48,080 nt of DNA from a virus: positions 1-48,080 of IMG/VR virus record IMGVR_UViG_3300049215_000599; one strand, written 5' to 3'. The translations under genes and the position numbers were made by a program. Under the pieces are notes generated by a model. It did no database searches. It saw nothing but the letters and a program-made list of their open reading frames with translations, and had not been told where the DNA came from. Below, piece by piece: positions 12,928 to 31,114 of this stretch; position 1 is the stretch's first letter, and each line of letters opens with the position of its first letter.

Positions 12928-12967
12928 GCCTAATTCGTCAATTCGTCAAATTCGTAGTTCGTAGGGA
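12928..12967. repeat. 40-bp direct repeat, copy 1 (TTCGT iterons)
   Basis: This 40-bp unit begins GCCTAATTCGTC and ends TTCGTAGGGA. It contains four TTCGT elements and is repeated identically at 12981-13020, 13 bp further on. It is part of the probable replication origin. Confidence 0.85.
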
Positions 12968-12980
12968 GACGCCGTAACTA

Positions 12981-13020
12981 GCCTAATTCGTCAATTCGTC
13001 AAATTCGTAGTTCGTAGGGA
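12981..13020. repeat. 40-bp direct repeat, copy 2 (TTCGT iterons)
   Basis: Identical over 40 bp to 12928-12967, with four TTCGT elements. A partly matching inverted copy (TCCCTACGAA... ACGAATTTGACGAATT) lies at 13211-13239 on the other side of the A+T-rich core. Confidence 0.85.
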
Positions 13021-13351
13021 AGATACCTGGATACGGGTCTAAGGTAGAGTGTATCCATGTATTCGTATATTCGTATATTCGTTTATACATTTTTATATAT
13101 AAATTATAATATATAATATATATATTTATATGTATATAATATATAAGAATATACTAATAGACCAGCCCAAACCGAAGAACCAAGAACACCAAGAGTGAGC
13201 CTGTGTATCTTCCCTACGAATGACGAATTTGACGAATTTACGAACGAAGGGAATCGGGCGCCCAAGCTCCTCCAATTCAGTCCTTTCTTTTCTTCGTCGG
13301 TTTGGGTTAGCTCGTGAGCCGCGAATATTGATTATTAAATCACTTTAGGTA

Positions 13352-16983: not shown

Positions 16984-18393
16984 GTGGCGACGTTGACTGG
17001 GCAGAACCCTCTTCTCTATGCGAGCACCTCGGATCTTCTCTACGATTACGCTCTCAGCTCCGCTTATCGACGGAGCTTCGTGTACGATCCTTCTTTTGCC
17101 CTCTCTCGCACCCCCGACATCTGGGAGATTGTTCGCTCAGATGTCGGGTTCTCCGCCTCTATTGACCGTTATACCAACCAGGTCACGCGGCCATGGCATG
17201 TCGAGGCTCCCAAGAAATCCAAGAAGAAGGATGATCAGCGCATGGCCGCGATCGTCGAGGATGCCGTAGGCCAGATCTACGACTTCGACAATGCGAGGAG
17301 GATCTTGAGCGAAGCCGCCTTCCTCGGACGTCGCTATGCCTATATCGAGAGCGACCGGAAGGTCATGGATCTTGGGGGCGAGGAGGAAATGGAGTGGATC
17401 GTTCCTACTCTCCTTCGGGATGTCGATCGCAGGCGCTTCCGCTGGGTTCCCCAGCTCGTCGGGGAGCCCGGAAGGCAGGAGCGCGTGATGCACCTCGCCT
17501 TCTTCAATACGATCCAGAATCAGTGGCAGGAAGCGTCCCCGTGGTTCCGTTCGGCTCTCATCGAATTCATCTGGTATAACACGGAGGAGAGAGTCGGAAA
17601 CGGGCGCGGATGGCTTGAGCAAATCTATTTCGCGCACTTCATGAAGTCGACCGCGGTCACCAAGGTTGCGGACGGAGTCGATCGCTGGGCGAAGGGCATC
17701 TGGCTGGGGACGATCGACGGACTCCGCAATGCTTCGACCGGCAAGACCAACGACGATCTCATGGCGGGGATGAAGAGCATGCTTCGCACGATGCGTGAAG
17801 AGCATGTGGGCGTCATCGAGAATGTGGATGACGTCAAGATCGTCGAGACGAGCGGGACGGGCCATGAGATCGCCATGGATTTCATCCATTACTGGGATAA
17901 TGGAGTCGAGCGGCTGGTGAACGGATCCGTACGTCCCACCGGTCTCGGAGGTCAGAAGACGGGCGGTCGCGCCCAGGCGGAGACGGAAGAAGATTCGAGC
18001 GAGGCCCACTATCAGCCGGCGCGGGATACCGGGGATGCGGTCGTCAATCGGGATCTCATCGGATGGTTCCTCTCCCAGCCCCTCAATCGCCAGAACCTTG
18101 AGAAGCTCGGCCTTGGAAGGGCGAAGCGTTCGGTCTTCCATTCCCGCCAGGAGAAGCGTGAGTCGATCCAGGATATCGTGACGACCGCAACGATGTTCAT
18201 GGATCGCGGAATCCCCCTCGTCGAACAGGAAGTCTATGAACGCGCGGGCGGATGGGCTGTTCCGGGTCCTGGAGACAAGACGATCAGGGGACGCCAGGAT
18301 GCGTTCGGAAGCCTCGATCAGGCCGAGCGGGAGAACGGGAAGTGGCAGAAAGGCAAGGGAGCCGGCGGGGCCGATAAGGGGGACGAGAGCTAG
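16984..18393 (+). CDS. Portal protein (DUF935/Mu gp29-like)
   Basis: A 469-residue protein starting at GTG 16984 behind TAGGAGGAG. The N-terminus includes SRTPDIWEIVRSDVGFSASI and a charged linker, followed by a mixed core. The C-terminal third (HSRQEKRESIQDIV..., DRGIPLVEQEVYERAGG) matches the layout of Mu-like portals, ending in a Lys/Gly-rich tail. Twelve such subunits would form the vertex through which DNA enters. In Mu-type head operons the next gene is usually the F-like minor head protein; here a 13 kb insert intervenes. Confidence 0.85.
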   Translation: MATLTGQNPLLYASTSDLLYDYALSSAYRRSFVYDPSFALSRTPDIWEIVRSDVGFSASIDRYTNQVTRPWHVEAPKKSKKKDDQRMAAIVEDAVGQIYDFDNARRILSEAAFLGRRYAYIESDRKVMDLGGEEEMEWIVPTLLRDVDRRRFRWVPQLVGEPGRQERVMHLAFFNTIQNQWQEASPWFRSALIEFIWYNTEERVGNGRGWLEQIYFAHFMKSTAVTKVADGVDRWAKGIWLGTIDGLRNASTGKTNDDLMAGMKSMLRTMREEHVGVIENVDDVKIVETSGTGHEIAMDFIHYWDNGVERLVNGSVRPTGLGGQKTGGRAQAETEEDSSEAHYQPARDTGDAVVNRDLIGWFLSQPLNRQNLEKLGLGRAKRSVFHSRQEKRESIQDIVTTATMFMDRGIPLVEQEVYERAGGWAVPGPGDKTIRGRQDAFGSLDQAERENGKWQKGKGAGGADKGDES

Positions 18394-18482: not shown

Positions 18483-18512
18483 TTGACATCTATTGATACC
18501 GCTTGGTATACT
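18483..18512 (+). promoter_or_regulatory. Strong predicted promoter of the glycan cassette
   Basis: TTGACA (18483-18488), an 18-base spacer, then TATACT (18507-18512) with TGG directly before it as an extended -10. A start about 18519 would place the 5' end of the RNA one or two bases before the first stem of the structured leader. The cassette therefore has its own promoter separate from the terminase/portal transcript. Confidence 0.7.
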
Positions 18513-18518
18513 CTCTCC

Positions 18519-18630
18519 CAGAGATGAAGTGGAAGCCGGCTCTCCCCAAGGCCACACGACGCAAAGACAGTTCCCGCTTTTCCGCTTCATCTCGGAATAC
18601 GGGCGTGTCGTGTGGCCTTGATGGGAGTTT
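18519..18630 (+). promoter_or_regulatory. Structured 5' leader with interleaved stems (A-B-A'-B', pseudoknot-capable)
   Basis: Two long inverted repeats cross each other. Stem A: 18521-18535 pairs with 18579-18593 (GAGATGAAG with CTTCATCTC, then GGAA with TTCC, two G-T wobbles). Stem B: 18547-18562 pairs with 18605-18620 (CAAGGCCACACGAC with its exact complement, 14 bp perfect, two more inward pairs with one wobble). Loops between are 11, 16 and 11 bases. The order A-B-A'-B' is that of an H-type pseudoknot; the stems share no bases. B' ends 2 bases before GGGAG, a possible ribosome site, and 7 bases before a TTTTT run. No known riboswitch family is recognised. Confidence 0.7.
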
Positions 18631-18645
18631 TTGGATTTCACGCCC

Positions 18646-19365
18646 ATGAAGCTGAAAGCGGGAGCTTGGAATCAGGAATCGGTCGTCCTTGTGGGAGGGG
18701 GGCCGAGCCTCAAGACTTTCGACTGGAGCATCCTTCGCCGGTGGAAGGAGCGTGTGATCGTGGTCAACCGTGCTTTCATTGATGTCCCCACGGCGGATCT
18801 CTTCTTCACCGAAGATGCACGGTTCATCACCCGCTTCGCGCGCGAATATTCCTATGCCTGGAAGACCTTCAAGGGGCTCAAAGTCTGGAACTGCCTCTCC
18901 GAGTCGGAGATCCCCGAAGTGCTGGCAGTAGCACCCGAGATCCAGATACTCACGAAGAAGAGAGACGATAAGTTCTGGTCCACCTCCTTCGAGGAGGGTC
19001 TTGGCTATTCATCCAACAGCATGGTCGGAGCGATGAACATCGCATGGCTCATGGGTGGAGAGCCGCTCTATCTGCTTGGGGTGGATGCGCGAACGTCTGG
19101 CCTCAGGATGGAGAACTACCATACGGATTACCGGTCCGACCCTATGTGGGAAGTGGGGGCCAATGCAGCGGACAACTTCAAGAACGATTTCGAGGGATGG
19201 GTCGCTCCCCATGTGAAGGATCGGGTCGTTCTCAATCTGGTCGATCCGGATCCAGACCGCATCTCCGCGATCACCTCATGGCCAAGGGTGGACCGGGACA
19301 AGTTCTTCCAATCCAGGTTCGATTTCGAAGCTCTCGATAAAGGAGGAAAGAAGAATGCTTCGTAG
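18646..19365 (+). CDS. DUF115/MptE-like Rossmann protein, putative glycosyltransferase-like
   Basis: A 239-residue protein. ATG 18646 is preferred; an in-frame TTG at 18631 lies only three bases after GGGAG. Early in the chain VVLVGGGPSL (GGGPSL at 17-22) is the nucleotide-binding loop of DUF115/MptE-like and related sialyltransferase-like proteins. SSNSMVGAMNIAW at about 122-134 and LYLLGVDA at about 141-148 match the second conserved block of that group. In bacteria such proteins work in surface or flagellin glycan modification. As first gene of the cassette it is probably a transferase or accessory in the same pathway. Substrate unknown. Confidence 0.7.
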   Translation: MKLKAGAWNQESVVLVGGGPSLKTFDWSILRRWKERVIVVNRAFIDVPTADLFFTEDARFITRFAREYSYAWKTFKGLKVWNCLSESEIPEVLAVAPEIQILTKKRDDKFWSTSFEEGLGYSSNSMVGAMNIAWLMGGEPLYLLGVDARTSGLRMENYHTDYRSDPMWEVGANAADNFKNDFEGWVAPHVKDRVVLNLVDPDPDRISAITSWPRVDRDKFFQSRFDFEALDKGGKKNAS

Positions 19366-19711
19366 AGAGTTCCTTCAGTGGGCCTCTTCGCTTCCCGTCA
19401 TCGGAAGCGGTATTCCGGTGCTTCTTGGAAGGAAGTTCCGCTCCGTGCCCATGGCGACCTTCATCGAGATGGATTCGGGTACCTGGCCCAACAAGGTAGG
19501 AGACAGTCTCGAAGTCGAGGATGTTCGTACCCAGGAGTTTGAATACATGGAGTGGATTCCCACGAGAGTCGAGCAGGGAAAGAGGACGGTTGTGAGGTGG
19601 GACGGGAAGAAAGCCAGGAAGACCGTCACCTGGATCAGGCTCAAGGGACGAAAGTGCGAGGTCAATGGAAGGGCGGTCAAGCTCTGGGTCAGGCAGGAGG
19701 AGATCCGGTAG
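19355..19711 (+). CDS. Small Tat-signal protein in glycan cassette
   Basis: A 118-residue protein overlapping the previous gene by 11 bp. It begins MLRREFLQWASSLPVIGSG, a twin-arginine pattern (RR-x-F-L) with a hydrophobic region to about residue 27, similar to the start of the protein at 5392-5796. The remainder is beta-rich and basic (GKKARKTVTWIRLKGRKCEV). Export through Tat would place it in the periplasm or membrane. No family recognised. Its TAG shares one base with the GTG start of the following glycosyltransferase. Confidence 0.65.
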   Translation: MLRREFLQWASSLPVIGSGIPVLLGRKFRSVPMATFIEMDSGTWPNKVGDSLEVEDVRTQEFEYMEWIPTRVEQGKRTVVRWDGKKARKTVTWIRLKGRKCEVNGRAVKLWVRQEEIR

Positions 19712-20346
19712 TGCTGAAAGTCGTCAGTTACTATACGAACGACTTCTACCGGCAGAGATCCATTGCCCTCACCCGGTCTCTCGATAGGCACGGAGTCTAT
19801 TATGAAGTCTCCTATGTCAAAGGGAAAACGAGCTGGGTTGAGGCCGTTTGTCACAAGCCGCAATTCATCGCCGAGTCTCTCGTCCGTTCGTCGTGCGATC
19901 TTCTGGTCTGGACTGATGCTGACAGCATCCTGGAAAGGCCTATTCCTTTCGAAGAACTTGGGAAAGGGGACATCGCTTTCGTTGGATGGCAAAGATCCCC
20001 TCATCACGACCGAGAATATCTTACGGGAACTATGGTCTTCAAGAATTCAACGAGAGTAAGGGACTTCGTGGAAGAATGGGCTCACCTGACGCCCACGTAT
20101 CGGAATACCTTTACGCCTGAGCAGATGAGCCTGAAGGAGCTCCTTTCGCAGAAGACCGAGATCGCGATCCAGGAGCTCGATCCATCGTGGTGCTTCATTC
20201 AGGACGATATGAGGGAGATGTATCCGAATGCGAAAGAAATCTTCCGCCATACGCAAGCGAGCCGGACCTACAAGGAAATCGAAAGGAAAGCGGCTGAAGA
20301 AGCGGAACTTTCTCGAAGACTGGCTGAAAAGGAGTCCGGGAACTAA
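19711..20346 (+). CDS. Glycosyltransferase (GT-A fold, DAD motif)
   Basis: A 211-residue protein starting at GTG 19711, which overlaps the preceding TAG; GGAGGAG lies 10 bases upstream. It has a nucleotide-sugar transferase layout: first strand VVSYYTN, a conserved KP at 49-50, then LLVWTDADS with DAD at 69-71 for metal and donor binding. The C-terminus is a charged helix (ERKAAEEAELSRRLAEKES), perhaps a coiled coil for assembly. It is paralogous by eye to the protein at 3989. Donor and acceptor unknown. Confidence 0.8.
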   Translation: MLKVVSYYTNDFYRQRSIALTRSLDRHGVYYEVSYVKGKTSWVEAVCHKPQFIAESLVRSSCDLLVWTDADSILERPIPFEELGKGDIAFVGWQRSPHHDREYLTGTMVFKNSTRVRDFVEEWAHLTPTYRNTFTPEQMSLKELLSQKTEIAIQELDPSWCFIQDDMREMYPNAKEIFRHTQASRTYKEIERKAAEEAELSRRLAEKESGN

Positions 20347-20367
20347 CGACTACATCGTGGACATGTG

Positions 20368-21267
20368 ATGAGATTGCTGGTGACGGGGGCTCATGGATTC
20401 CTGGGTCAGCATCTCGTTCCTCTTCTATCGGAATATGATCTCATCCTGCCCGAACGTCGTGAGTGCGACTGGAGGAACAAGAACCATGTGATCGCTTTTT
20501 TCCAATCCTATGTCCCCCATGCGGTCATCCATCTTGCCGCGAATGTGGGAGGGATCGGATACAACCAGAAGAATCCGGGAACCCTCTGGCGGGACAACCT
20601 TGAAATGGGAATCAATATCCTGGAGGCCTCGAGAATTTACGACGTCGAGAAGCTGGTCATGGTTTCAACCACCTGCGCCTACCCGAAGTTCTGCGAGACC
20701 CCGTTCAAGGAGTCGTCTTTATGGGATGGATACCCTGAAGAGACGAATGCCCCCTATGGGATCGCCAAGCGTGCTCTCATGACCGGCGCGCTGGCCTATC
20801 GGAAGGAATTCGGACTGGATGTCGTTACCGCCATTCCGACCAACCTCTACGGAGAAGGGGACAACTTCAGTTACGGCGATTCGCACGTCATCCCGGCGCT
20901 CATCCGGAAGTTCACGGACGGCGAGGATTCCGTTACCCTCTGGGGGAGTGGGAAAGCGACCCGGGACTTCCTCTATGCGGGGGACTGTGCCCGCGCCCTG
21001 GTCAGGATGCTTGAGGACTACAGCCGGAATACCCCCATCAATCTCGGAAGCGGCGAGGAGATCTCGATCGGGGAGCTTGCGGTCAGGATCTCGAAGCTAT
21101 GCGGGTGGAACGGAAAGATCCACTGGGATTCCTCGAAACCCGATGGTCAGCCCAGAAGGCTTCTTTCGACCACGAATGCCAAAGCGGCCCTTCATTGGCA
21201 TGGAGAGGTGAATCTTGAGGAGGGACTTAAGAGGACGATCGGGTGGTGGAGGGCGAACCGATGCTAG
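20368..21267 (+). CDS. fcl: GDP-L-fucose synthase-like epimerase/reductase
   Basis: A 299-residue extended short-chain dehydrogenase; ATG 20368 is used. NAD(P) motif GAHGFLG at 7-13; LAANVGGIG near 57-64, STTCAYPK at about 100-107 and YGIAK with Tyr130/Lys134 are hallmarks of GDP-fucose synthase (3,5-epimerase-4-reductase). NLYGEGDNFSYGDSHVIPAL and VTLWGSGKATRDFLY are the other characteristic blocks. It would turn GDP-4-keto-6-deoxymannose into GDP-L-fucose or a close relative. No GDP-mannose 4,6-dehydratase is seen, so the precursor must come from the host or the epimerase at 28548. Confidence 0.85.
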   Translation: MRLLVTGAHGFLGQHLVPLLSEYDLILPERRECDWRNKNHVIAFFQSYVPHAVIHLAANVGGIGYNQKNPGTLWRDNLEMGINILEASRIYDVEKLVMVSTTCAYPKFCETPFKESSLWDGYPEETNAPYGIAKRALMTGALAYRKEFGLDVVTAIPTNLYGEGDNFSYGDSHVIPALIRKFTDGEDSVTLWGSGKATRDFLYAGDCARALVRMLEDYSRNTPINLGSGEEISIGELAVRISKLCGWNGKIHWDSSKPDGQPRRLLSTTNAKAALHWHGEVNLEEGLKRTIGWWRANRC

Positions 21268-21947
21268 AAGCATGGGTTGTCTTTCCGTCGGCGGACAGGG
21301 AGAAGGCCGATCAAGCCGTCCGAGCGTGGTCACGGAAGGGATACCGGACTCTCGTCATGCAAGATCCTGGAAAAGATCGTTGCTCTGCCGACCTTGTCCA
21401 TATCTCCCCTTTCACAGGCTATTACCGCTCGATCAACCTCCTGGTGGATCAGGCACTTTCTCTCGGAGCCGACACGGTCACCTGCGCTGCGGATGACATG
21501 GATCCTGATCCCGTAGCTACCGCCCAGGAGATTGGGAAATCCTATCTCGAGCGGTATCCCGATGGAGACGGAGTGCTCCAGGCCTGCGGAGATATGCAGG
21601 GAATGGATGGATCAGGAAGACAGGCTTCAGCGAGGATCTGCGGAAGTCCGACCTTCGGTAGAGGGTGGATCGAAAGAAGCTACGAAGGCAATGGGCCTTT
21701 CTGGAGCGGATATAGGAGTTTCTATGGGGATGAGGAGCTTTACAACGTAGCGCTCTATCATGGGCTTCTGTGGATGGCTCCTGAATATACCTTCCTCCAT
21801 CGCCACTGGTCCTTTGGGTGGAGCGAGCAGTCGAGTTATCAGAAGAGGAATTCGGATACCTGGTGGAACGAGGATAAAGCTCTCTTCGATGTAAGGATAG
21901 AGGCTGGATTCCCCAGGAGCGGCCTTCTTTCGAAGGATGGACACTGA
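21261..21947 (+). CDS. Putative glycosyltransferase
   Basis: A 228-residue protein; ATG 21261 overlaps the end of the previous gene. VVFPSA opens a Rossmann-like half and AADDMDPD at 77-84 has the acidic cluster expected of a GT-A active site. A later aromatic-rich region (FWSGYRSFYGDEELYNVALYH) with a second acidic pair (DEE) could bind the acceptor. The family cannot be named. Overlaps of one to seven bases with both neighbours tie it to the pathway. Confidence 0.7.
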   Translation: MLEAWVVFPSADREKADQAVRAWSRKGYRTLVMQDPGKDRCSADLVHISPFTGYYRSINLLVDQALSLGADTVTCAADDMDPDPVATAQEIGKSYLERYPDGDGVLQACGDMQGMDGSGRQASARICGSPTFGRGWIERSYEGNGPFWSGYRSFYGDEELYNVALYHGLLWMAPEYTFLHRHWSFGWSEQSSYQKRNSDTWWNEDKALFDVRIEAGFPRSGLLSKDGH

Positions 21948-22702
21948 TGCTGTCAGCCTACTGGGCCGTCTCCAACAACTTCGGCGATCTCATCGGTCCC
22001 TGGATGATCGAGAAGATGACGGGACTATACCCTCTCTATGCGGAGCCGAATGCACAATATTCCTATCTCTGTCTCGGCGGGTCCATCATCAATCACGTCA
22101 ATTCATCGGCGGAAGTCTGGGGCGCCGGCCTTGGAACGATTACCGACGGGATCAATCCTGATGCACGCATCCATGCGGTGAGAGGACCCATCTCGAGATC
22201 GAGAGCTCTTTCTCTGGGGATCAAGTGTCCGCCCATCTATGGAGATCCAGGGCTTCTTCTGCCTATCTTCCATAAGCCATCCCTCAAGAGGCAGCCAAGA
22301 GTAGGAGTCGTTCCTCACTACGTAGACCAGTACAGGGCCTATGACCGATACCGCTCGAGCGCCCATGTCATCAATGTCTTCAAATCCATCGAATGCGTGG
22401 TGGATGAGATCTGTTCCTGCAGCGCCATCATTTCGAGCTCCCTTCATGGGATCATCGTCGCCCACGCCTACGGGATTCCGGCCCTCTGGGTCAAGATCTC
22501 CGACAGCCTGGGCGGCGATGGAACCAAGTTCCGGGATTACTTCCAGTCGGTGGGGATGGACATTCCTCAAGCAATCGACTTGAGAGAGGGCGGGCCGCTC
22601 CCCGAGGTCCCGAACTTCGTGCCATCCATCGATACCAAAGCGTTCTTTGATGCATGTCCCATCCCGAAAGAGAAGAGAGTGGGTTTCCAATATTATGTAT
22701 AG
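21947..22702 (+). CDS. Polysaccharide pyruvyl transferase family protein
   Basis: A 251-residue protein starting at ATG 21947, one base into the preceding stop. The family pattern is clear: NNFGDLI near the start, CLGGSIIN at 42-49, WGAGLG at 58-63, AVRGPISR at 77-84, YGDPGLLLP at 98-106 and SSSLHGIIVAHAYGIPAL at about 163-180. Members transfer pyruvate from phosphoenolpyruvate to sugar units in cell-wall polymers and exopolysaccharides, giving acidic ketals. Phage-encoded copies are unusual. It probably modifies the glycan built by neighbouring enzymes. Confidence 0.85.
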   Translation: MLSAYWAVSNNFGDLIGPWMIEKMTGLYPLYAEPNAQYSYLCLGGSIINHVNSSAEVWGAGLGTITDGINPDARIHAVRGPISRSRALSLGIKCPPIYGDPGLLLPIFHKPSLKRQPRVGVVPHYVDQYRAYDRYRSSAHVINVFKSIECVVDEICSCSAIISSSLHGIIVAHAYGIPALWVKISDSLGGDGTKFRDYFQSVGMDIPQAIDLREGGPLPEVPNFVPSIDTKAFFDACPIPKEKRVGFQYYV

Positions 22703-23279
22703 CCAGGACGACGAGGAGAAGTTCATCCTGGAATGCTTCGGGGAGGAGAAGGGATACTTCCTGGATATCGGGGCGGCCGGAGGCATCAGGTTCTCGAATA
22801 CGAGGGCGCTCGTCGAGAGGGGCTGGCGCGGCATCATGGTCGAGCCGTCTCCCAAACAGTTCCTTGAGCTCTTCGAGGTCTATAAAGACAATCCCGAAAT
22901 CGTGCTTCTTAACGCGGCTCTTGCATGCTCGGCATCTCCAGAGAAGTTCTATTTCTCTCCCGAGACGGTCGTTAACACGATCAACCGTGAGGTGAAGGAG
23001 GAGTGGTCGAGGAGCTTCAAGTACTGGAGTTGGTTCATCTTCACGATGCCGGTCACGCTTTTTGTGGGGACGATGGTGAAGTTCAACGTTGACTTCGTCT
23101 CCATCGATGCGGAGGGGGAGAGCTGGGCGATTGCCATCGAGCTCATGAATCTTGGGTGTCGGCCAAAGATGTTCGTGGTCGAACACGACCATCTCCAGGA
23201 AAGAGGGGAAGCGGTGTTCGGTTCCAGGGGATACAAGAAGATCCATACGACCGGTAACAATACGATCTGGACACGATGA
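22695..23279 (+). CDS. FkbM-family SAM methyltransferase
   Basis: A 194-residue protein; ATG 22695 overlaps the preceding stop by 8 bp. Motif I FLDIGAAGG at 22-30, IMVEPSP at 47-53 (acidic loop after strand 2), and VSIDAEGESW at about 135-144 match FkbM-type methyltransferases, which methylate hydroxyl groups of sugars and other metabolites in the cytoplasm. The Asp-Ala-Glu-Gly signature is the key FkbM feature. A second FkbM-like protein lies at 27967. Likely role: O-methylation of the glycan or nucleotide sugar. Confidence 0.8.
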   Translation: MYSQDDEEKFILECFGEEKGYFLDIGAAGGIRFSNTRALVERGWRGIMVEPSPKQFLELFEVYKDNPEIVLLNAALACSASPEKFYFSPETVVNTINREVKEEWSRSFKYWSWFIFTMPVTLFVGTMVKFNVDFVSIDAEGESWAIAIELMNLGCRPKMFVVEHDHLQERGEAVFGSRGYKKIHTTGNNTIWTR

Positions 23280-24064
23280 TGAACGTCTTCTCAGTCGCTT
23301 TCTTCAGGAACTGGGCTTCTGGATACGAGTCTGAAAGGGCCGGCGCGGGTCGCGGGGTCTTCTTCGTCAACTATCTCAGGAGCCTGGTCCGGAATCATTG
23401 GGCTGTCTGGAGCGACTGGAAACTCTGGATCCATCATGATGAGAAGGCCAGGGAATTCCCTTATTGGAAGTGCATCGAGAAGATGGCGGATCGAGGTCTT
23501 CTCCGTATTTTCTACATGGGTGAGGCCAAGAAGCTCTGTGAAGCGATGCTCTGGAGGATGATTCCGTGCTGGAATACGGACGTCTCAAGAGTCCTTTGCC
23601 GCGATCTTGATTCCCTCTCCACTCCACGGGAGAGGAGAGCCGTCGATAAATGGATCTCTTCCGAGAAGGCCGTCTCCGCCCTTCATGACAGCGAGAGCCA
23701 TAGCTCCACAGCTCTCATGGGAGGTCTGGTTGGATTCAAATCGGAGTGGGTGAGGGAGCATTGGAATACCTATCTCTATTTGATCTGGAAGGCAAAGGCT
23801 CACGGGATCGATCTCACCTACCATGGATCGGATCAGAACCTTCTCAATACCGAAGTCCTTCCTTACGCCCTTGCGGAGGGGCAGCTCTTAAGCGAGGACA
23901 GATTGAGTCTCGGGCCGAAGGGCCATATACTGGATGCCCTAGGGACACATTGCGGGGGAGCCATGCACGTAGATCCTGTCGTCCACTGGTTCAAAGAGCA
24001 TCGTGACTATTGTCCGAAACTCGACGTGATCGAGGAATGTGAAAAGGATTGGAAGCAGACATGA
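23276..24064 (+). CDS. Putative glycosyltransferase (DLD motif)
   Basis: A 262-residue protein from ATG 23276, overlapping the previous stop. VLCRDLDSLS with DLD at 110-112 follows a hydrophobic strand, the position of the donor-binding triad in GT-A enzymes. A downstream segment HGSDQNLLN near residue 183 resembles the conserved DQ element that follows in many small GT8/GT-like proteins. The N-terminus has a FRNW plus Arg-rich start. Sugar specificity unknown. Confidence 0.7.
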   Translation: MMNVFSVAFFRNWASGYESERAGAGRGVFFVNYLRSLVRNHWAVWSDWKLWIHHDEKAREFPYWKCIEKMADRGLLRIFYMGEAKKLCEAMLWRMIPCWNTDVSRVLCRDLDSLSTPRERRAVDKWISSEKAVSALHDSESHSSTALMGGLVGFKSEWVREHWNTYLYLIWKAKAHGIDLTYHGSDQNLLNTEVLPYALAEGQLLSEDRLSLGPKGHILDALGTHCGGAMHVDPVVHWFKEHRDYCPKLDVIEECEKDWKQT

Positions 24065-24906
24065 CGACCTATGCCGTGATCGCCACCAACCATTCTCACA
24101 GCTATCAGTTCTTCGCTCCCTTGACAGCTCTCATGTGGAGGGAGGTGGTGGGTTTCAATACCCTTTGCTTCCTGACGGGCAATGAGAGGGATTGGCAGGA
24201 CAAGGCTGCGAAGCTCGTGGCTTCCAAGGTCCAGGAAGTGGGAGCTCGAGTCCAATATATCGGTCTTCTTGAAGGCTATCGCGACAGCCAGGCGGCCCAG
24301 TCGTCCCGCCAGCATGCCGCTGCGCTCGATCTTCCCGAGAGCGACCTCCTCATGACGGGCGACATCGACATGTGGCCTCTCTCCAGGGAATGGTTCAGGC
24401 AGTTTGACCTCGATGGATACGATTTCGCCTCCTTCTACAGCAATGCCTATGGCTGGCCCCATCCACCTTTCCTTCCGACTCCTTACATCGTGGCCACGGT
24501 CAAGAACTGGCGAAAGGTCATGCAGCTCGAGTGTCGTGGGGAGATCCTGACCCAGATGCAGGCAAACTTTGACCGGACGCTCGGGCGTTACCATGATTCA
24601 TGGACGGCATGGTGGCAGGATGAGGTGTACTTCAATTCGAAGTTGAGAGAGTGGGATGGCTGGCCCAAGAGAGTCCAGATGATCACGCGGGATGGATGCC
24701 CTCCTCACGATCGCATTGACCGCGGGTGCTGGCCTGCCGTTATCGACTGGTCGAAGCCTCTGGCAGACACCCACCTCGTCAGGCCTGGGGCGACCCCTGA
24801 GAACTGGTCCCGTATCCGGCCGATCCTTGAGCATTTCGTCCCAGACCATATGGATTGGGTGGATTCCTATCACAGAGCTTATTCGGAGGCCAAGTACAAT
24901 GCGTAA
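24061..24906 (+). CDS. Putative glycosyltransferase (DID motif)
   Basis: A 281-residue protein; ATG 24061 overlaps the preceding stop (ATGA). It starts with a beta-alpha unit (TTYAVIATNHSHSY), has an Arg-His-rich loop and LLMTGDIDMWPL with DID at 101-103, then WQDEVYFNSKL at about 187-197 with acidic residues suited to catalysis or acceptor binding. Size and order match small GT-A transferases. Its 3' end overlaps the small gene at 24899. Confidence 0.75.
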   Translation: MTTYAVIATNHSHSYQFFAPLTALMWREVVGFNTLCFLTGNERDWQDKAAKLVASKVQEVGARVQYIGLLEGYRDSQAAQSSRQHAAALDLPESDLLMTGDIDMWPLSREWFRQFDLDGYDFASFYSNAYGWPHPPFLPTPYIVATVKNWRKVMQLECRGEILTQMQANFDRTLGRYHDSWTAWWQDEVYFNSKLREWDGWPKRVQMITRDGCPPHDRIDRGCWPAVIDWSKPLADTHLVRPGATPENWSRIRPILEHFVPDHMDWVDSYHRAYSEAKYNA

Positions 24907-25144
24907 AGCCACGGTTGGAGAGATTGTCCTTTATCGCCCAGCCATCGATGACCAGAGATTCCATGACAAAGGCCATCGGGAGATCCTCCCTGCGGTCGTG
25001 ACGAAGATCTGGGATGGAGTCGAGAATCTTCAAGTGCTCCCGGCCATGGATCTCCATGTCCTTCAGGATGCCCAGGTGCCGACGACCTTTGTCCCCTTCG
25101 TCCGTCAGGGGTCAGGAATCGGAGAGTGGAGCTTCCGTGATTAA
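24899..25144 (+). CDS. Small beta-rich protein, unknown function
   Basis: An 81-residue protein from ATG 24899 overlapping the previous stop by 8 bp. It reads as a compact beta domain: GEIVLYRPAI, ILPAVVTKIWDG, LQVLPAMDLHVL, then GSGIGEWSFRD. Small SH3-like proteins of this type occur in many phages without known function. In the middle of the glycan cassette it may bind or regulate a partner. No catalytic motif is visible. Confidence 0.6.
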   Translation: MRKATVGEIVLYRPAIDDQRFHDKGHREILPAVVTKIWDGVENLQVLPAMDLHVLQDAQVPTTFVPFVRQGSGIGEWSFRD

Positions 25145-25481
25145 AGCTTTTGACAGGGGGGGAAGTATCGTTGGGCATATTTGCCTGACCCATATTCTGG
25201 ACGGTGTCCTTCATGGGAAGATCGTCCCCCTGTTCAATCCGGAGGTAGGACCTCTCTATGGCATCGCGGAATTCAATCTGTCGAAGCCGTGCATCCATGC
25301 GCTCCGCCTCTCCGGCTCTCCCGGTCTCTTTGGACCTTTGGATGAGCTGAGCGATGTGCCTCTGGCCTATCCAAGGAAGATGGAGAGCTACGAGATAACA
25401 GCGGAGATCCTGGAGAAGATCCTGGTCGATGCCAAAGAGCGCGAGAAGGAGGGCTGGTTCGCTCCAGTCTATATCGAGTGA
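25137..25481 (+). CDS. Hypothetical protein
   Basis: A 114-residue protein probably starting at GTG 25137, which overlaps the previous TAA, with GGAG upstream. It has strands GSIVGHICLTHIL and GKIVPLFNPEV, then an aromatic C-terminal helix (EILEKILVDAKEREKE). Its stop overlaps the GTG start of the phosphatase-like gene. No motif identifies a function. Confidence 0.6.
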   Translation: MIKAFDRGGSIVGHICLTHILDGVLHGKIVPLFNPEVGPLYGIAEFNLSKPCIHALRLSGSPGLFGPLDELSDVPLAYPRKMESYEITAEILEKILVDAKEREKEGWFAPVYIE

Positions 25482-25831
25482 AGAAGAAGGTCCTCACGGT
25501 CTGCAACGGAGGCAATGTCAGAAGCACGATGCTCGCCGAAGTGCTCAAGGGTACATTCGGGTGCGATGCCATCAATATAGGGACTTACTGGGCTTCCCAT
25601 GAGACGATAGGGATGCTTGCCTCGTGGGCCGATCTCATCGTTCCTGTAGAACCTCGCTTCACGGCCAAGCTCCCAGAGCCGGATCTTCGATATTGGATCG
25701 ATTCACCCATCTGGAACTGGCCTGAGAAGATCAGGATCGCGAAGATCGGTCCTGACGCATGGGGGCATGAGAAGTGGAAGGAATTGAAGGAAACTTGTGT
25801 CATTGCTGCCCAGGAGATCCTCCATGGCTAA
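25478..25831 (+). CDS. LMW-phosphatase-like protein (CX5R loop), copy 1
   Basis: A 117-residue protein from GTG 25478. VLTVCNGGNVRSTM contains Cys9-x5-Arg15-Ser, spaced exactly as the phosphate-binding loop of low-molecular-weight tyrosine phosphatases and arsenate reductases. Near residue 93, GPDAWG resembles the general-acid loop (Asp followed by an aromatic) of that family. It is shorter than typical members (about 150). Target could be a tyrosine kinase or regulator of polysaccharide synthesis, as in Wzb/Wzc systems, or a sugar phosphate. A related copy lies at 26947. Activity is inferred from residue spacing only. Confidence 0.65.
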   Translation: MKKKVLTVCNGGNVRSTMLAEVLKGTFGCDAINIGTYWASHETIGMLASWADLIVPVEPRFTAKLPEPDLRYWIDSPIWNWPEKIRIAKIGPDAWGHEKWKELKETCVIAAQEILHG

Positions 25832-26459
25832 CGAAGTCCGTGATAACGGGAAGATCCTGATCCTGGACATCATGGGGGGATGTCCCATGGTAGTGGATCC
25901 CCAGAAGCCGCATCTGGGCGGAAACATGAACGGCGGGGATAGTGCCACGGATTTCTCGACGGATCTCTTTCCATGGCTGGTCAAGACCTTCTCGATCGAA
26001 AGCCTGATCGATGTGGGATGCGCCCAGGGCCATGCTCTTCATGCCTTCCGGGCTCTCGGAGTCAAGAAACTTCTGGGGATCGAGGGATTGAAATACAACG
26101 CGGACTTCTGCAAGGTGCCCGTTGTGGTCCACGATCTCACGAAAGGCCCTCACATCGTGGAAGGCTACGACTTTGTGTGGTGTTCGGATGTTGCGGAGCA
26201 CATCGAAGAGCAGTTTGTCGACAACCTGCTTTTGACTCTCGCCAATGGAAAGATTCTGGCGATGGCGCAAGGCGGTCCGAACATGGGCCATAGTGGCTGG
26301 CACCATGTGAACAACCAGCCGGAGAGCTATTGGATCGAAAAACTGAAGTCCGTGGGCATGGAGACAGACGTTGAGCTCACCGAGGTAGCCCGCCGTCAGA
26401 CCAACCGTGGCATCTGGCCTGAGTTTGGGCGGATTTACAGGAATGTGAGGAATAAGTGA
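25824..26459 (+). CDS. SAM-dependent methyltransferase (class I)
   Basis: A 211-residue protein; ATG 25824 overlaps the previous stop. SLIDVGCAQGHALHAF (DVGCAQG at 63-69) is motif I, GIEG at 85-88 follows strand 2, and VWCSDVAEHIEEQ at about 118-130 is motif III/IV-like. The overall pattern matches small methyltransferases of type 11/23 common in surface-glycan operons. Its position between two CX5R phosphatase-like genes is notable. Substrate unknown. Confidence 0.8.
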   Translation: MANEVRDNGKILILDIMGGCPMVVDPQKPHLGGNMNGGDSATDFSTDLFPWLVKTFSIESLIDVGCAQGHALHAFRALGVKKLLGIEGLKYNADFCKVPVVVHDLTKGPHIVEGYDFVWCSDVAEHIEEQFVDNLLLTLANGKILAMAQGGPNMGHSGWHHVNNQPESYWIEKLKSVGMETDVELTEVARRQTNRGIWPEFGRIYRNVRNK

Positions 26460-26950
26460 CGCAAGACCTCGGAGTAGGCAGTCATGTTCCCGTTCTTGCC
26501 TCAGCCGTGGCCAGGACGACGGGGGCGGTTTACGAGTTCGGCATGGGACATTGGTCGAGCTGGATGTTGCACCTCATGTGCGTTCCGGACCGTCCTCTCA
26601 TCAGCTATGAATCAGATGCGGAGTGGATCGGAAAGTTTACGGGACTCATCGACAGGAACCATCTGGTGAGGCATGTGCTCGATTGGGAGAAGGAAACGTC
26701 GATCGACTATGCAGAGGGAGACGTAGCCTTTGTGGATCATTCTCCTGGAGAAGAGCGGATCAGGACCATCATGCGCCTGAAGGGCCGCTTCAAGTACATC
26801 GTGGTACACGATACTTGCGCCGACCTTCCTGGCTCCGGCGGCAATTACGGCTGGAAGCACCTCGACGGGAAGTTCAAGCACCAGGTCATCTACAAGCAGG
26901 TGCGGCCCTGGACGACCGTCTATTCGGATGTCGAGGAGTTCGCGCTATGA
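26456..26950 (+). CDS. Methyltransferase-like protein
   Basis: A 164-residue protein from GTG 26456. VYEFGMGHWSSWMLHL (EFGMGHWS at 27-34) resembles a glycine-rich SAM loop, SYESDAEW at about 50-57 supplies the next acidic residue, and VAFVDHSPGEER near 89-100 the following strand. Phage and bacterial proteins of this type are annotated only as methyltransferase-fold. The catalytic subtype is not recognised. It overlaps both neighbours by four bases. Confidence 0.6.
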   Translation: MTQDLGVGSHVPVLASAVARTTGAVYEFGMGHWSSWMLHLMCVPDRPLISYESDAEWIGKFTGLIDRNHLVRHVLDWEKETSIDYAEGDVAFVDHSPGEERIRTIMRLKGRFKYIVVHDTCADLPGSGGNYGWKHLDGKFKHQVIYKQVRPWTTVYSDVEEFAL

Positions 26951-27279
26951 ACATTTTAGTCGTCTGCGAAGGCGGTAATAGCCGCAGCGTCCAGTTTGCA
27001 ACTATCCTTAAGACGGAATTTGGACATAACGCGGTGGCTATCGGGACGATGTATGCGCTCGATGGGGCGAGGGGTCGAGAGCCCGGAACGATGCTTTCCC
27101 GATGGGCCGATCGCATTGTTTTCATGGCCGCCTATATTGTGAATAAAGAACTCATTCCTCAGGATTGCTGGGACAAGATCCGGGTCTGCGAGCTCGGGCA
27201 GGATGTCTATGGGCGCGGACTGAATGAGGATCTTTCCCGCAAATGCCATGATTTCATGAATACGAATGGGTTGGCGTGA
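26947..27279 (+). CDS. LMW-phosphatase-like protein (CX5R loop), copy 2
   Basis: A 110-residue protein from ATG 26947, overlapping the previous stop (ATGA). NILVVCEGGNSRSVQF has Cys7-x5-Arg13-Ser, the same loop spacing as the copy at 25478. LGQDVYGR, with Asp86 before an aromatic, parallels the GPDAWG of the other copy. Its N-terminal strand and helix match too, so the two are paralogues about 1.1 kb apart with two methyltransferase-like genes between. One may be catalytic and the other regulatory, which is unknown. Confidence 0.65.
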   Translation: MNILVVCEGGNSRSVQFATILKTEFGHNAVAIGTMYALDGARGREPGTMLSRWADRIVFMAAYIVNKELIPQDCWDKIRVCELGQDVYGRGLNEDLSRKCHDFMNTNGLA

Positions 27280-27280
27280 G

Positions 27281-27982
27281 ATGAAAGACAGGGCCATCGT
27301 CACCTGCTGCTACTCGGTGAATAATCGGGAATACTACACCTCGTACTTCGAGAGGTTGAAGACGAGCCTGGATATCCATTCGAAGAATGCATCGCTCATT
27401 GCATGGACAACCGAGTGGCCGACGGGCTCTCCTCCTCATCAGTCGATGCCGTACGCCTTCAAATACTATGCCGTGAAAGATGCCTTCGAGAGAGGCTTCC
27501 AGAAAGTCTTGTGGCTCGACGCGGGAACGCAGGCTGTCTCATCCATCGAGCCCTTGTGGGACAGGGTGGATAGTCATGGCTATGCCCTCCTCCGTGGGGC
27601 TGATAACCTTGGAAAGTGGATCAGCGATTATGCTCTTGCGAAGTATGGATACACCCGCCTGCAGGCGAAGGAGATGACCCTTGCAGGCGGGTGTCTCGTG
27701 GGTCTCGACCAGAAGAGCAAGATCGCCATGGAATTCTTCGAGAAGTGGGAAGAGATCGCCCGCGACAGGAAGCTTCTCATGGGAGCCAATAGAAGGCCAA
27801 GGGAGCACGGTGGCGTCATGCGCTCCCTCATGCTTTCCGATGCGGATCAGTCGATCATCTCGGAAGATCCATGGGTGGAAGGCCACAGATCCGATGAGAG
27901 TTGCTTCACGCTTCTCATGGACAGGATGAAGATGGAACCGATCACCTATACCGATTGGCTCAAGGTATGCAAAACGTACTAG
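27281..27982 (+). CDS. Putative glycosyltransferase (LDAGTQ motif)
   Basis: A 233-residue protein from ATG 27281, two bases after the previous stop. VLWLDAGTQ at about 77-85 places Asp80 and an unusual AGT where GT-A enzymes have DxD, so the metal site may differ. Further on, HRSDESCFTLLM near residue 205 supplies an acidic pair. The sequence has the alternating beta-alpha start of the family (IVTCCYS). Its 3' end overlaps the next gene by 16 bp. Function inferred from fold pattern and context. Confidence 0.65.
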   Translation: MKDRAIVTCCYSVNNREYYTSYFERLKTSLDIHSKNASLIAWTTEWPTGSPPHQSMPYAFKYYAVKDAFERGFQKVLWLDAGTQAVSSIEPLWDRVDSHGYALLRGADNLGKWISDYALAKYGYTRLQAKEMTLAGGCLVGLDQKSKIAMEFFEKWEEIARDRKLLMGANRRPREHGGVMRSLMLSDADQSIISEDPWVEGHRSDESCFTLLMDRMKMEPITYTDWLKVCKTY

Positions 27983-28551
27983 TCATCGACAATCACTCCG
28001 TGAGAACGGACCTTCTCGTCAAAGGCCCGGTGCTCGACGCTGGTTCTCGAGGGCTTGCGTTTTCAAGGTGGTTCGCGGCTCGTGGGCATAAGGTCGTCGC
28101 GCTTGATGCCGGAGAGGATGAAAAGGCCGATGGAGTGTCGACTCACAAAATGGCTCTTGTCCATTCAAAGTGGGCAGGGGGCAATGTGGCCCTGGCGCAA
28201 ACCAGCGATCTCAATGCGCGATATATCGAAGGGCAATCAAGCGAAGGGGTATACGGAATCAGCATTCCAGTCCTGATGCATGATTATGGGATTGTCAAGT
28301 GGGACGTCATCAAGCTGAATATCGAGGGAAGCGAGTACGACATCCTGGATGAAATCGATGGTCCGATCTCAAGACAGATCGTCTTTGGGATGCATGAACA
28401 TACGCAGGCGGCCAGAGGCAGAGCCGAGTGTGACCGTATCATCGATAAGCTGCGCCAGTGGTACACGATCCATAACCAAGTCTGGGAGAGGCGCTACGGC
28501 TGTATCGAGTCCTACTGGGATGTGCTTTGCATCGAGAAAGGGATCCAATGA
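27967..28551 (+). CDS. FkbM-like SAM methyltransferase
   Basis: A 194-residue protein from ATG 27967, overlapping the previous gene by 16 bp. VLDAGSRG at about 22-29 serves as motif I, VVALDAGED follows strand 2, and WDVIKLNIEGSEYDIL at 112-127 is the FkbM signature (Asn-Ile-Glu-Gly in place of Asp-x-Glu-Gly). It is diverged from the copy at 22695. Probably O-methylates a sugar. Confidence 0.75.
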   Translation: MQNVLVIDNHSVRTDLLVKGPVLDAGSRGLAFSRWFAARGHKVVALDAGEDEKADGVSTHKMALVHSKWAGGNVALAQTSDLNARYIEGQSSEGVYGISIPVLMHDYGIVKWDVIKLNIEGSEYDILDEIDGPISRQIVFGMHEHTQAARGRAECDRIIDKLRQWYTIHNQVWERRYGCIESYWDVLCIEKGIQ

Positions 28552-29483
28552 GAGCTTTTGTCACAGGAGCCACGGGTTTCCTGGGCTCTCACCTGGTCCC
28601 AAGGCTTGGCCCAAAGACCGTCTCTCTCATTCGGGATCGCGCCACCTATCTCTCTTCCGGCATGAAGGTGGATACGACCCCCCTCTCCACGGTCTGCCAT
28701 GGCGACCTTTCTGACCTTCCTAATCTTGAGAGGATCCTTGCGGAATACAGGATCGATACCGTCTTCCATCTCGCCGCTCAGACGGAGATTGCGGTCGGGT
28801 CCAAAGACCCGATCGGGACCTTCGAGTCCAATATCCGCGGGACCTGGAATGTCCTTGAGGCCTGCCGCCGTCAGAGGGTGGGGAGAATCATTGTCGCCTC
28901 GAGCGATAAATGTTATGGACGCAGCAAGCCTCCCTACAAGGAGACGATGCCCCTCCTTCCCGATCGTCCCTACGAAACTTCTAAAGCCTGCGTCGATCTC
29001 CTGGCCAAGACCTATGCTGAAACCTACGCGATGTCGATCGCGACAACGCGCTCGGTCAATCTCTATGGCCCTGGATGCCTCAGTCTCTCGACTCTTGTCC
29101 CCAATACGATCAAAAGGCTCCTTCTTGGGGAGAAGCCTATGGTCCGGAACGGGGGGGTCATGAGGCGAGACTGGCTCTATGTGGAAGATGCCGTCGATGC
29201 CTACATCAAGCTGTCGAGCAGCAGTTATGTCGGACCCATGAATATCGGCGGAGGAGAGGGCATATCGGTCCGTCAGGTGGTTGATATCATCATGGATCTG
29301 ATGGGCAAGAAGGTCGATCTCGTCGATGAGGTCGACACTCATGGTGAGATCGTCGATCAGTGGACCGATGCCTCGCTGGCCAGAAAAGTCATCGGATGGA
29401 CTCCCGCCCATACGCTTAAGGACGGACTTCGGAAGACGATCGAATGGTACAAGATCTACTTTGCGGAGGCCCCATGCGCCTGA
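28548..29483 (+). CDS. NAD-dependent sugar-nucleotide epimerase/dehydratase
   Basis: A 311-residue extended SDR; ATG 28548 overlaps the previous stop. GATGFLGSH at 7-15 binds NAD, HLAAQTE at 74-80, SSDKCYG at 118-124 and PYETSK with Tyr142/Lys146 are catalytic-region motifs. SSDKCYG and NGGVMRRDWLYVEDAVDAY recall CDP-glucose and related 4,6-dehydratases rather than simple 4-epimerases. It could supply a 4-keto-6-deoxy sugar to the GDP-fucose synthase-like enzyme, although nucleotide specificity cannot be judged. Confidence 0.8.
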   Translation: MRAFVTGATGFLGSHLVPRLGPKTVSLIRDRATYLSSGMKVDTTPLSTVCHGDLSDLPNLERILAEYRIDTVFHLAAQTEIAVGSKDPIGTFESNIRGTWNVLEACRRQRVGRIIVASSDKCYGRSKPPYKETMPLLPDRPYETSKACVDLLAKTYAETYAMSIATTRSVNLYGPGCLSLSTLVPNTIKRLLLGEKPMVRNGGVMRRDWLYVEDAVDAYIKLSSSSYVGPMNIGGGEGISVRQVVDIIMDLMGKKVDLVDEVDTHGEIVDQWTDASLARKVIGWTPAHTLKDGLRKTIEWYKIYFAEAPCA

Positions 29484-30319
29484 TCGGTCTCATGGTTGTA
29501 AGGAATGAATCATGGGTGCTTGAAGCCTCCATGAAGGCGGCGCTTCAGTGGGTGGATGGCCTGGCGATCTATCTCGACCGATGTACGGACAATACAGTCG
29601 AGATCGTGAAGAAGATCGCCAAGGGATGCAAGAAGGACATCCTGGTCAACGAGTCGGATCCCGATGCCTATTGGCAGGAGATGGATCATCGCCACAAGAA
29701 TCTCCAGGATGGAAGAGGGATGGGAGGAACCCATTTCGCCATCATCGATGCGGATGAGATCCTCACATCCAACCTCCTCCCCTGGGTTAGAGGGTGGTGC
29801 GAAGAACTCATGCCGGGCCAAGTGCTCGACCTTCCCATGGTGGCTCCCTGGGGAAACCTTGACTTCTATTCTCCGAATACCCGCTCCGTCATGACCGTCG
29901 CATTCATGGACAAGTCTGATCTCGGGTGGGCTCCGAGAGGGGAAGAGAAGTACCACCACCACAATAGGCCACCTCATGGATTCACCGGAAGGATGTCTCC
30001 CTTGTCTCTTGAGGAGGGAGGCTGCTTCCATCTCCAGTGGGCTTCGATCCAGAGGAAGATCTGGAAAGACCGCCATTACATGATGACGGAGCTCCTGAGG
30101 TGGAATTATCCGGAAGACGCCATCAATGAGAAGTATCATTGGTGGGACAAGCTCCCTCACGGAGCGGATTTGAAAGCAGTTCCTCCTGGATGGTGGGCCG
30201 GATACGACAAGTCCTCTATCCGGCCCACCCAACCTTCCTGGTACGAATGGGAAGTCAAGAAACTCATCCGTGAGCATGGTCGTGAGCGCTTTTCAAAACT
30301 CTCTCTTTTTGGATTATAA
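29474..30319 (+). CDS. Glycosyltransferase family 2-like protein
   Basis: A 281-residue protein from ATG 29474, overlapping the previous gene by 10 bp. LIGLMVVRNE at 3-12 is the family-2 opening (RNE), YLDRCTDNT at about 33-41 the second block, and FAIIDADEIL with DADE at 92-95 the donor-metal site. The C-terminal part is Trp/His-rich (HHHNRPPHGF; KYHWWDKLPHG). This is the most clearly classified transferase of the cassette and the last of its glycan genes. Confidence 0.8.
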   Translation: MRLIGLMVVRNESWVLEASMKAALQWVDGLAIYLDRCTDNTVEIVKKIAKGCKKDILVNESDPDAYWQEMDHRHKNLQDGRGMGGTHFAIIDADEILTSNLLPWVRGWCEELMPGQVLDLPMVAPWGNLDFYSPNTRSVMTVAFMDKSDLGWAPRGEEKYHHHNRPPHGFTGRMSPLSLEEGGCFHLQWASIQRKIWKDRHYMMTELLRWNYPEDAINEKYHWWDKLPHGADLKAVPPGWWAGYDKSSIRPTQPSWYEWEVKKLIREHGRERFSKLSLFGL

Positions 30320-30322
30320 ATT

Positions 30323-31114
30323 ATGGCCATGGTCCGCTCGGTCATCAACGATCTCTCGTCCAAGCTCTCGATCGACGAGATCCAACCGCAAGGAGATCAT
30401 ATTCTCATCGAGGTTCTTGAGAGGAACCGCTCCAAGGCCGGGATCATCATTCCCGGAAAGGAGAAGGCCGAGTGCCTCTATGGGAAAGTCCTCAAGGTCG
30501 GCAATGGGGAATGCAGCCCGGAGACGGGAGAGTACTACGGACCAGGAGTGAAGGCCGGAGATATCATCATGTCGGTGCAGTACATGGGAGAGAAGATCCA
30601 GGCCATCGGTAAGAATTACAGGCTTCTCCGGGAGCATGGGATCTGGGCGACCCTTAAAATAGAGAGGAAGTCGGAATTCGATTTCGAGATCCTCGAGATC
30701 CATCCCTATCGGGACCATATCCTCCTTAAGATGGCCAAGGAGGAGAAGACGCTAAAAGGGCATCTCTTCCTCCCATCAAACCCTCAAGCCATGTTCCGCA
30801 TGGCGGACGTGGTTTCCACGGGTCCCGGAGAGAGAAGGCTCGCGACAGGCGTCGTCATCCCGCCATCCGTCAAGGCGAAGGATCGCGTCATCGTCATGCG
30901 CTATACGGGGTGCATCATGCATATGAAGGGTATTGAATATCGCCTGTCGAGCGAGGAGGATATCATGGCGATATTCGAGGGCCTTGGGGACGTGGACTGC
31001 ATTGCCGGCCAGCATGCTCTTCCTCGGGCATCGGACAACTATGGAGTCATGTCGGATGCGGAAATGAACGAGTTGAATCGAAAGACGATCGTGGATTCTG
31101 GAGGTGAAGCGTGA
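30323..31114 (+). CDS. Tandem two-domain GroES-like co-chaperonin
   Basis: A 263-residue protein from ATG 30323. Residues 19-112 read like GroES: IQPQGDHILIEVLE, GIIIPGKEKAECLYGKVLKVG, GVKAGDIIMS... and YRLLREHGIWATL. Residues 122-219 repeat the plan: EIHPYRDHILLKM, GHLFLPSN, ADVVSTGPGE, VKAKDRVIVMRY... and YRLSSEEDIMAIF. GroES is normally one such domain of about 95 residues; a fused pair occurs in plastid Cpn20. Phage co-chaperonins (T4 gp31 type) cap host GroEL to fold the capsid. Placement directly before head genes supports that role. The mobile-loop regions (36-46 and 143-152) differ from each other. Confidence 0.8.
   Translation: MAMVRSVINDLSSKLSIDEIQPQGDHILIEVLERNRSKAGIIIPGKEKAECLYGKVLKVGNGECSPETGEYYGPGVKAGDIIMSVQYMGEKIQAIGKNYRLLREHGIWATLKIERKSEFDFEILEIHPYRDHILLKMAKEEKTLKGHLFLPSNPQAMFRMADVVSTGPGERRLATGVVIPPSVKAKDRVIVMRYTGCIMHMKGIEYRLSSEEDIMAIFEGLGDVDCIAGQHALPRASDNYGVMSDAEMNELNRKTIVDSGGEA

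Follow-up and report, generated by a model that had tools for sequence, protein, structure and literature searches.

A recurrent leader RNA of uncultured phages has a 5' end complementary to its own hairpin loop and may act as a self-antisense attenuator

We analyzed a window of 48,080 bp, which is a complete IMG/VR virus record (IMGVR_UViG_3300049215_000599), and describe in it a promoter-proximal leader in which the start of the predicted transcript is complementary to the apical loop of the long hairpin that follows. The same crossing layout, A-B-A'-B', occurs at seven sites, two of them near-identical, on six phage contigs, one of which is the window, and it very probably represents a real, recurrent and uncatalogued RNA element. 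We propose, with a probability of roughly 0.45, that this self-complementary leader RNA of about 110 nt works as a two-state, self-antisense attenuator, by analogy with the logic of the control RNAs of phages P4 and P1 and with an anatomy of its own.

Results

Crossing repeats start at a promoter ahead of a glycan cassette

The leader sits in the 250-bp gap between the portal gene and a cassette placed between portal and head genes, which encodes NAD-sugar epimerases, a pyruvyl transferase, an FkbM methyltransferase and a glycosyltransferase (Table 1). The window also encodes a large terminase and a Mu-F-type head gene. The first cassette gene most likely starts at the ATG at 18646, given that the encoded MKLKAGAW lines up with MILTEQAW and MQLREGAW in relatives.

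The crossing repeats at 18521-18627 are real and lie far beyond chance. In a scan for crossing helices of the A-B-A'-B' type, the window leader scored 75, compared with maxima of 54 and 57 among dinucleotide shuffles (n = 5,000 and n = 2,000; 0 out of 7,000 reached the window score), and nothing else in the 48 kb scored above 53, overlapping versions of the same element aside. A preliminary description of this DNA had reported two crossing stems, A (18521-18535/18579-18593) and B (18547-18562/18605-18620), and both are present. As RNA, A comprises 13 Watson-Crick and two G-U pairs, and B as first noted (16 bp) comprises 15 and one. That description had let B' end before the sequence GGGAG; B in fact extends over the longer arms given in Table 1, so that this Shine-Dalgarno-like GGGAG (18623-18627) is paired inside the stem and TTTTT comes next. 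The equal offsets of 26 bases between the stems are arithmetically correct and are not kept in relatives. A short third helix within B (C and C') flanks A'.

The extended -10 promoter claimed directly upstream was confirmed, with TG before the -10 hexamer, and an equally good match in the same register occurs at 0.0001 of positions. Its spacer holds a palindrome (GATACC-GCTT-GGTAT, about 18497-18510); palindromes also lie between the -35 and -10 of cassette promoters elsewhere (TTCGCA-TTTG-TGCGAA, L012 about 775-790), with a related one in G009 (L030 about 6770), and these are possibly repressor operators.

Table 1. Coordinates of the leader, its neighbors and the corresponding sites in related contigs.
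Feature	Location	Strand	Remark
Window
Mu-type portal gene	16984-18393		PF06074
Sigma-70-type promoter, TTGACA-18-TATACT, extended -10 (TGG)	18483-18512	+	11/12 consensus
Predicted transcription start	18519-18521	+	7-9 nt after the -10; inferred from the -10 position
A, 5'-terminal segment complementary to A'	18521-18534	+	reaches 18535 via a G-U pair
41-codon reading frame from the 5'-end ATG	18524-18649	+	TGA overlaps the cassette-gene ATG (ATGA)
B, 5' arm of the long hairpin	18540-18562	+
Antisense stretch, loop and A'	18569-18590	+	complementary to the cassette gene start
C, 5' arm of the inner helix just under the A'-bearing loop	18570-18574	+
A', part of the apical loop, complementary to the RNA 5' end	18580-18593	+	reaches 18579
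C', 3' arm of the inner helix	18594-18598	+
B', 3' arm of the long hairpin	18605-18627	+	last five bases GGGAG
T run right after the B stem, terminator-like	18628-18632	+
Candidate additional target of A', at the beginning of the cassette gene (start codon and the codons next to it)	18646-18666	+	by complementarity
First cassette gene, MptE-like/DUF115-like	18646-19365	+	weak Pfam match of the G001 orthologue
Relatives
G001 site	L002 11036-11142
G005 late site	L012 934-1030
G007 late site	L016 4082-4180		near-identical to G005 late
G005 early site	L011 10804-10702	-
G008 site	L023 19573-19468	-
G009 site	L039 8550-8652

Regarding the genome as a whole, the terminase matches many cultured phages at about 30% identity. 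Neither the portal nor the major capsid protein had a match among cultured phages, and alignments of these two proteins gave no relative in sequenced bacterial genomes that would point to a host. The glycan cassette (18646-30319) occupies an unusual site for sugar genes, between portal and Mu-F head genes; it lies at the same place in G005, G008 and G009, and the order of portal followed by cassette is kept in relatives. At its end, adjoining the head genes, is a Cpn10 (GroES-like) gene (30323-31114, 263 aa, two matched stretches). Further upstream, at 12940-13060, the minus-strand sequence CTACGAACTACGAATTTGACGAATTGACGAATTAGGC is present twice in an AT-rich gap next to a Prim-Pol/DUF3987 gene and resembles origin repeats.

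The layout recurs in relatives with different stem sequences

Relatives were fetched via their portal, cassette-gene and capsid proteins. At each of the seven sites, 0 out of 2,000 shuffles reached the score of the site itself. The stem letters differ among the sites and the pairing is kept (A reads GAGATGAAGTGGAA, GATGAGCCGCGAA, GATGAGCAGCCGA, GTGGACAAGCTC and GTGAGCAACGAC); the compensating changes that the preliminary description had proposed to look for were thus found, in that five further contigs keep the crossing layout with different stem sequences. Since the late sites of G005 and G007 are near-identical, we count them as one, which leaves six independent cases. When the window, G005 and G007 were aligned with MAFFT, the stems stayed out of register, and covariation is therefore argued from the replacement of whole stems. 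Between the near-identical copies, there is one clear double change (CAGAGG/CCTCTG in G005 to CAGGGG/CCCCTG in G007), the pairing partner of which is ambiguous.

No other leader of this type was found in the approximately 559 kb of relatives scanned. G020 gave matches of similar score, which fall on GC-rich repeats that lie within or close to coding DNA and lack a promoter; this contig carries tandem 40-bp GC-rich repeats at L064 484-678. That such repeats reach 73 with the same scanner outside any leader is what could be said for a coincidence, namely an ordinary terminator hairpin with a fortuitous match between A and A'. This explanation is already contradicted by the recurrence at seven sites, each beyond all of its 2,000 shuffles and five of them abutting a promoter, with no other such leader in the scanned 559 kb, and we regard it as hardly credible.

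The element also appears to be absent from current catalogs. Rfam covariance models of all families, including manA and wcaG, gave no gathering match in the window or in six relatives, and at E ≤ 10 the leader region of the window gave nothing relevant and no RF01695. The earlier reading as a structured RNA leader directly after a promoter is supported. Compared with the DNA of cultured phages, the window leader had one 25-nt chance match only and the G007 leader had none.

Five of the seven sites are promoter-proximal

At five sites, the -10 hexamer (TATACT in three instances, TATTAT and TAGTAT) ends 6-8 nt before A, which places the beginning of A at about +1 to +3 of the predicted start of a sigma-70-like promoter. 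Per site, a promoter this good in the same register would arise by chance with a probability of 0.0001 to 0.018. Consensus matches are weak (8/12) for G001 and the early site of G005, whose promoters were missed by a simple scan. Three of these five elements (G005 early, G008 and G009) are on an operon divergent from a nearby tyrosine integrase, and the remaining sites precede the glycan cassette. We found no HTH_3 or S24 repressor domain in the G005, G008 and G009 contigs, which may be incomplete, or in the window; this absence does not exclude repressors of other kinds.

Counting against the attenuator that we propose, A is only 9 bp long in the late copies of G005 and G007, which have no U-run and their nearest promoter about 130 nt upstream. 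Ahead of the late element, both contigs additionally hold a promoter-like site and a strong T6 hairpin, almost identical between the two (L012 769-923 and L016 3914-4069). In the three early copies, the element is separated from the first gene by a further hairpin or an inverted repeat rich in GC (L011 10660-10700, L023 19340-19450 and L039 8665-8700). G005 also carries a tRNA gene (L011 1041-1113, minus strand).

Folding points to two alternative states

We folded the leaders with ViennaRNA; the crossed state is outside what this program models. When A and A' were held free, a single hairpin of 26-34 bp (B plus the inner helix) formed at 7/7 sites with A' in the apical loop. Apart from a few bases, this loop is all A', and again at 7/7 sites 0-5 nt separate the end of A from the foot of the hairpin. 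RNA truncated at the end of A', as it would be during transcription, gave an A:A' hairpin at every one of the seven sites (-20 to -31 kcal/mol), so that the order of synthesis would favor A:A' ahead of B.

Some 30 bp of helix measure about 80 Å, a distance that a linker of 0-5 nt cannot bridge, so that the complete A:A' and the complete B hairpin should exclude each other within one molecule, and A:A' would require the outer half of B to be open. Such mutual exclusion makes a classical pseudoknot unlikely, and the earlier suggestion that both stems stand together as a pseudoknot is doubtful for the same geometric reason at all seven sites. A two-state switch or intermolecular pairing fits the modeled geometry better than a static pseudoknot does. 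A variant of the latter, a true 5'-terminal pseudoknot of A with a partial B, might stabilize the mRNA or be bound by an autogenous repressor protein, for which T4 gene 32 is the comparison case. Pairing A with A' on top of the hairpin would be worth 5-15 kcal/mol with no pseudoknot penalty subtracted, and a paired 5' end would resist 5'-dependent decay; the linker, however, is too short for a stem of 26-34 bp, and the loops have no conserved letters that a common protein could bind. We consider this variant improbable.

An HDV-like or other self-cleaving ribozyme, suggested by the order P1-P2-P1'-P2', was rejected on account of the stem lengths and the missing P4-like hairpin; no model matched.

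Output signals lie at the base of the long hairpin

A U-run follows B' at four sites: directly after the stem in the window (TTTTT) and G009 (TTTTTTT), in good form at the early site of G005 (TTTTATTTT), and weakly, after TCA, in G008 (TCATTTTT). It is absent in G001 and at the late sites of G005 and G007. The U-runs of the window, with five T, and of G008 are modest, and a consensus terminator scan did not call these two hairpins, which its loop limit of 3-8 nt excludes. A Shine-Dalgarno sequence lies within B' in the window (GGGAG) and in G001 (GAGGAG, 3 nt before the ATG), and downstream of B' at the late sites of G005 and G007. A U-run or Shine-Dalgarno sequence at the base of B' is the alternation known from riboregulators, which use either a terminator or the blocking of a ribosome site.

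The promoter, the length of about 110 nt and the U-run at four sites would also suit a stand-alone small RNA with its own terminator that acts on other RNAs, its self-pairing guarding the 5' end only. Against this, the elements without a U-run (G001, G005 late and G007) run straight into a gene, and we give this explanation very little weight.

In the window, the loop and A' have a candidate second target at the start of the first cassette gene, to which they are complementary at 19 out of 21 positions with one gap (score 27, compared with a maximum of 25 in 300 shuffles). We found no second target near the element in the other copies and none that was convincing genome-wide, and the one in the window may therefore be special to this phage.

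All five promoter-proximal sites have an ATG or GTG within their first six bases that begins a frame uninterrupted across the element (shuffle chance 0.05-0.10 at each site and about 2e-6 jointly, as a post hoc count). Its stop codon overlaps the next start codon in the window (ATGA) and in G001 (TGATG). Other frames are often open too in this GC-rich DNA, and a common leader peptide was rejected, as the five peptides are not alike. The frame may reflect leaderless translation that feeds the switch, or may partly be a by-product of GC-rich DNA.

These frames bear on another reading in which A:A' and B:B' alternate in cis only, as a kinetic attenuator or translational switch that involves no trans-acting RNA and is set by polymerase speed, by a ribosome on the start codon at the 5' end, or by a phage or host protein. 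The folding of the prefix as A:A', the U-run or Shine-Dalgarno sequence at the base of B' and the 5'-end frames with their overlapping stops are all consistent with it. It leaves unexplained why the loop is complementary to the extreme 5' end, when in ordinary attenuators it would overlap B, and the dissimilar peptides and often open other frames weaken it. We judge a purely cis-acting switch to be unlikely, though it deserves to be taken seriously.

Discussion

A proposed self-antisense switch and its implications

In the attenuator that we propose, the nascent chain would form the A:A' hairpin as soon as the polymerase has passed A'. As long as A:A' persists, B would stay open in its outer half, and with it the terminator or Shine-Dalgarno block, leaving the operon on. 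If A is occupied, A:A' would fail and the full hairpin would close at once, turning the operon off by a stop at the U-run or by a block to translation. The natural occupant of A would be the A' loop of short transcripts terminated earlier at the same site, and the RNA would consequently repress its own operon in trans, in phage-specific letters, as P4 CI and P1 C4 do; this trans action of the terminated leader RNA is proposed by analogy. On the early operons beside the integrase, the leader would serve as a prophage-immunity RNA, and before the glycan cassette it would hold the cassette off until needed. The three early copies divergent from an integrase, in contigs where neither of the two repressor domains was found, agree with such a role.

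More speculatively, these leaders might form a new class of self-antisense phage RNA that provides temperate phages of this group with repressor-free, sequence-specific immunity and, ahead of the glycan cassette, with separately timed expression of surface-sugar genes, a view that we hold only tentatively. As we read the class, each member carries a tag at the RNA 5' end that is matched by the apical loop of a hairpin of about 30 bp, and the letters are rewritten in each phage. Because only the geometry is conserved and not the letters, such a module would be invisible to searches of the Rfam type. Were this so, self-control by RNA alone, of the P4/P1 type, would exist as a compact promoter-proximal module in a large group of uncultured soil phages, and could explain the control of lysogeny in phages without the usual repressor domains. 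It would also provide a switch that is small and portable, with 12-14 letters determining its specificity, and phage glycan cassettes would be switchable separately from the surrounding head genes.

Comparison with known systems

Among structured leaders of sugar genes, manA (RF01745) and wcaG (RF01761) precede sugar or exopolysaccharide genes in cyanophages (PMC2864571). Unlike these, the leaders described here have no Rfam match and no conserved, aptamer-like letters. They resemble riboswitch-like attenuators in that one platform serves as terminator or Shine-Dalgarno mask, and differ from them in having no conserved ligand-binding core and in alternative helices that cross, with letters not shared.

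The put sites of phage HK022 provide another parallel, as putL lies just downstream of PL with its first paired residue at nucleotide 3 (PMC9378689), and putL and putR, like the present element, are structures that start at or near the start of an early phage transcript. This position, together with the early copies and those ahead of the long cassette, would agree with a polymerase-binding RNA that loads at the promoter of a long operon for processive antitermination. The put RNAs, however, consist of two adjacent stem-loops of about 70 nt that share sequence, whereas we observed a single long hairpin with a crossing A and no sequence common to the sites. The same scanner found nothing in the HK022 early region, and a U-run after B' at four sites also argues against antitermination, which we consider very improbable here.

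IsrK of Gifsy-1 is a closer precedent for the trans step, as the read-through form of this RNA is acted on in trans by its own short, terminated form (PMC4825925). In contrast to the proposed leader, IsrK activates, and the passages on it there do not describe self-complementarity between 5' end and loop.

The C4 RNA of P1 and P7 (RF01695) shares with the window leader the arrangement of a promoter, an upstream target, a hairpin with an antisense loop and a downstream target at the start region; the P1 record is annotated in the order promoter-a1-b1-C4-a2-b2-icd, and the same scanner detects the P1 C4 hairpin with its crossing of loop and target (score 55). In C4, variable loops confer specificity (PMC5320573). 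C4 differs in its three stem-loops, its two target boxes of 7-8 nt and its processing by RNase P. Instead of three stem-loops with a' and b' loops, all seven sites have one long hairpin with one antisense loop, and of the C4-like pair of targets the upstream one is present at all sites and the downstream one is convincing only in the window.

Our scanner found no such structure in the P4 genome. According to PMC4825925, the CI immunity RNA of the satellite phage P4 is a short, phage-specific RNA from within the leader that acts in place of a protein repressor and pairs with seqA upstream and seqC downstream to cause premature termination. Our element differs in that its upstream partner is the very 5' end, its complementarity spans 9-14 nt and its carrier is a hairpin of 26-34 bp; in most copies, only the upstream partner was found. 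In the window, as with P4 CI, A' has both an upstream partner (A) and a candidate downstream one, at the start of the cassette gene.
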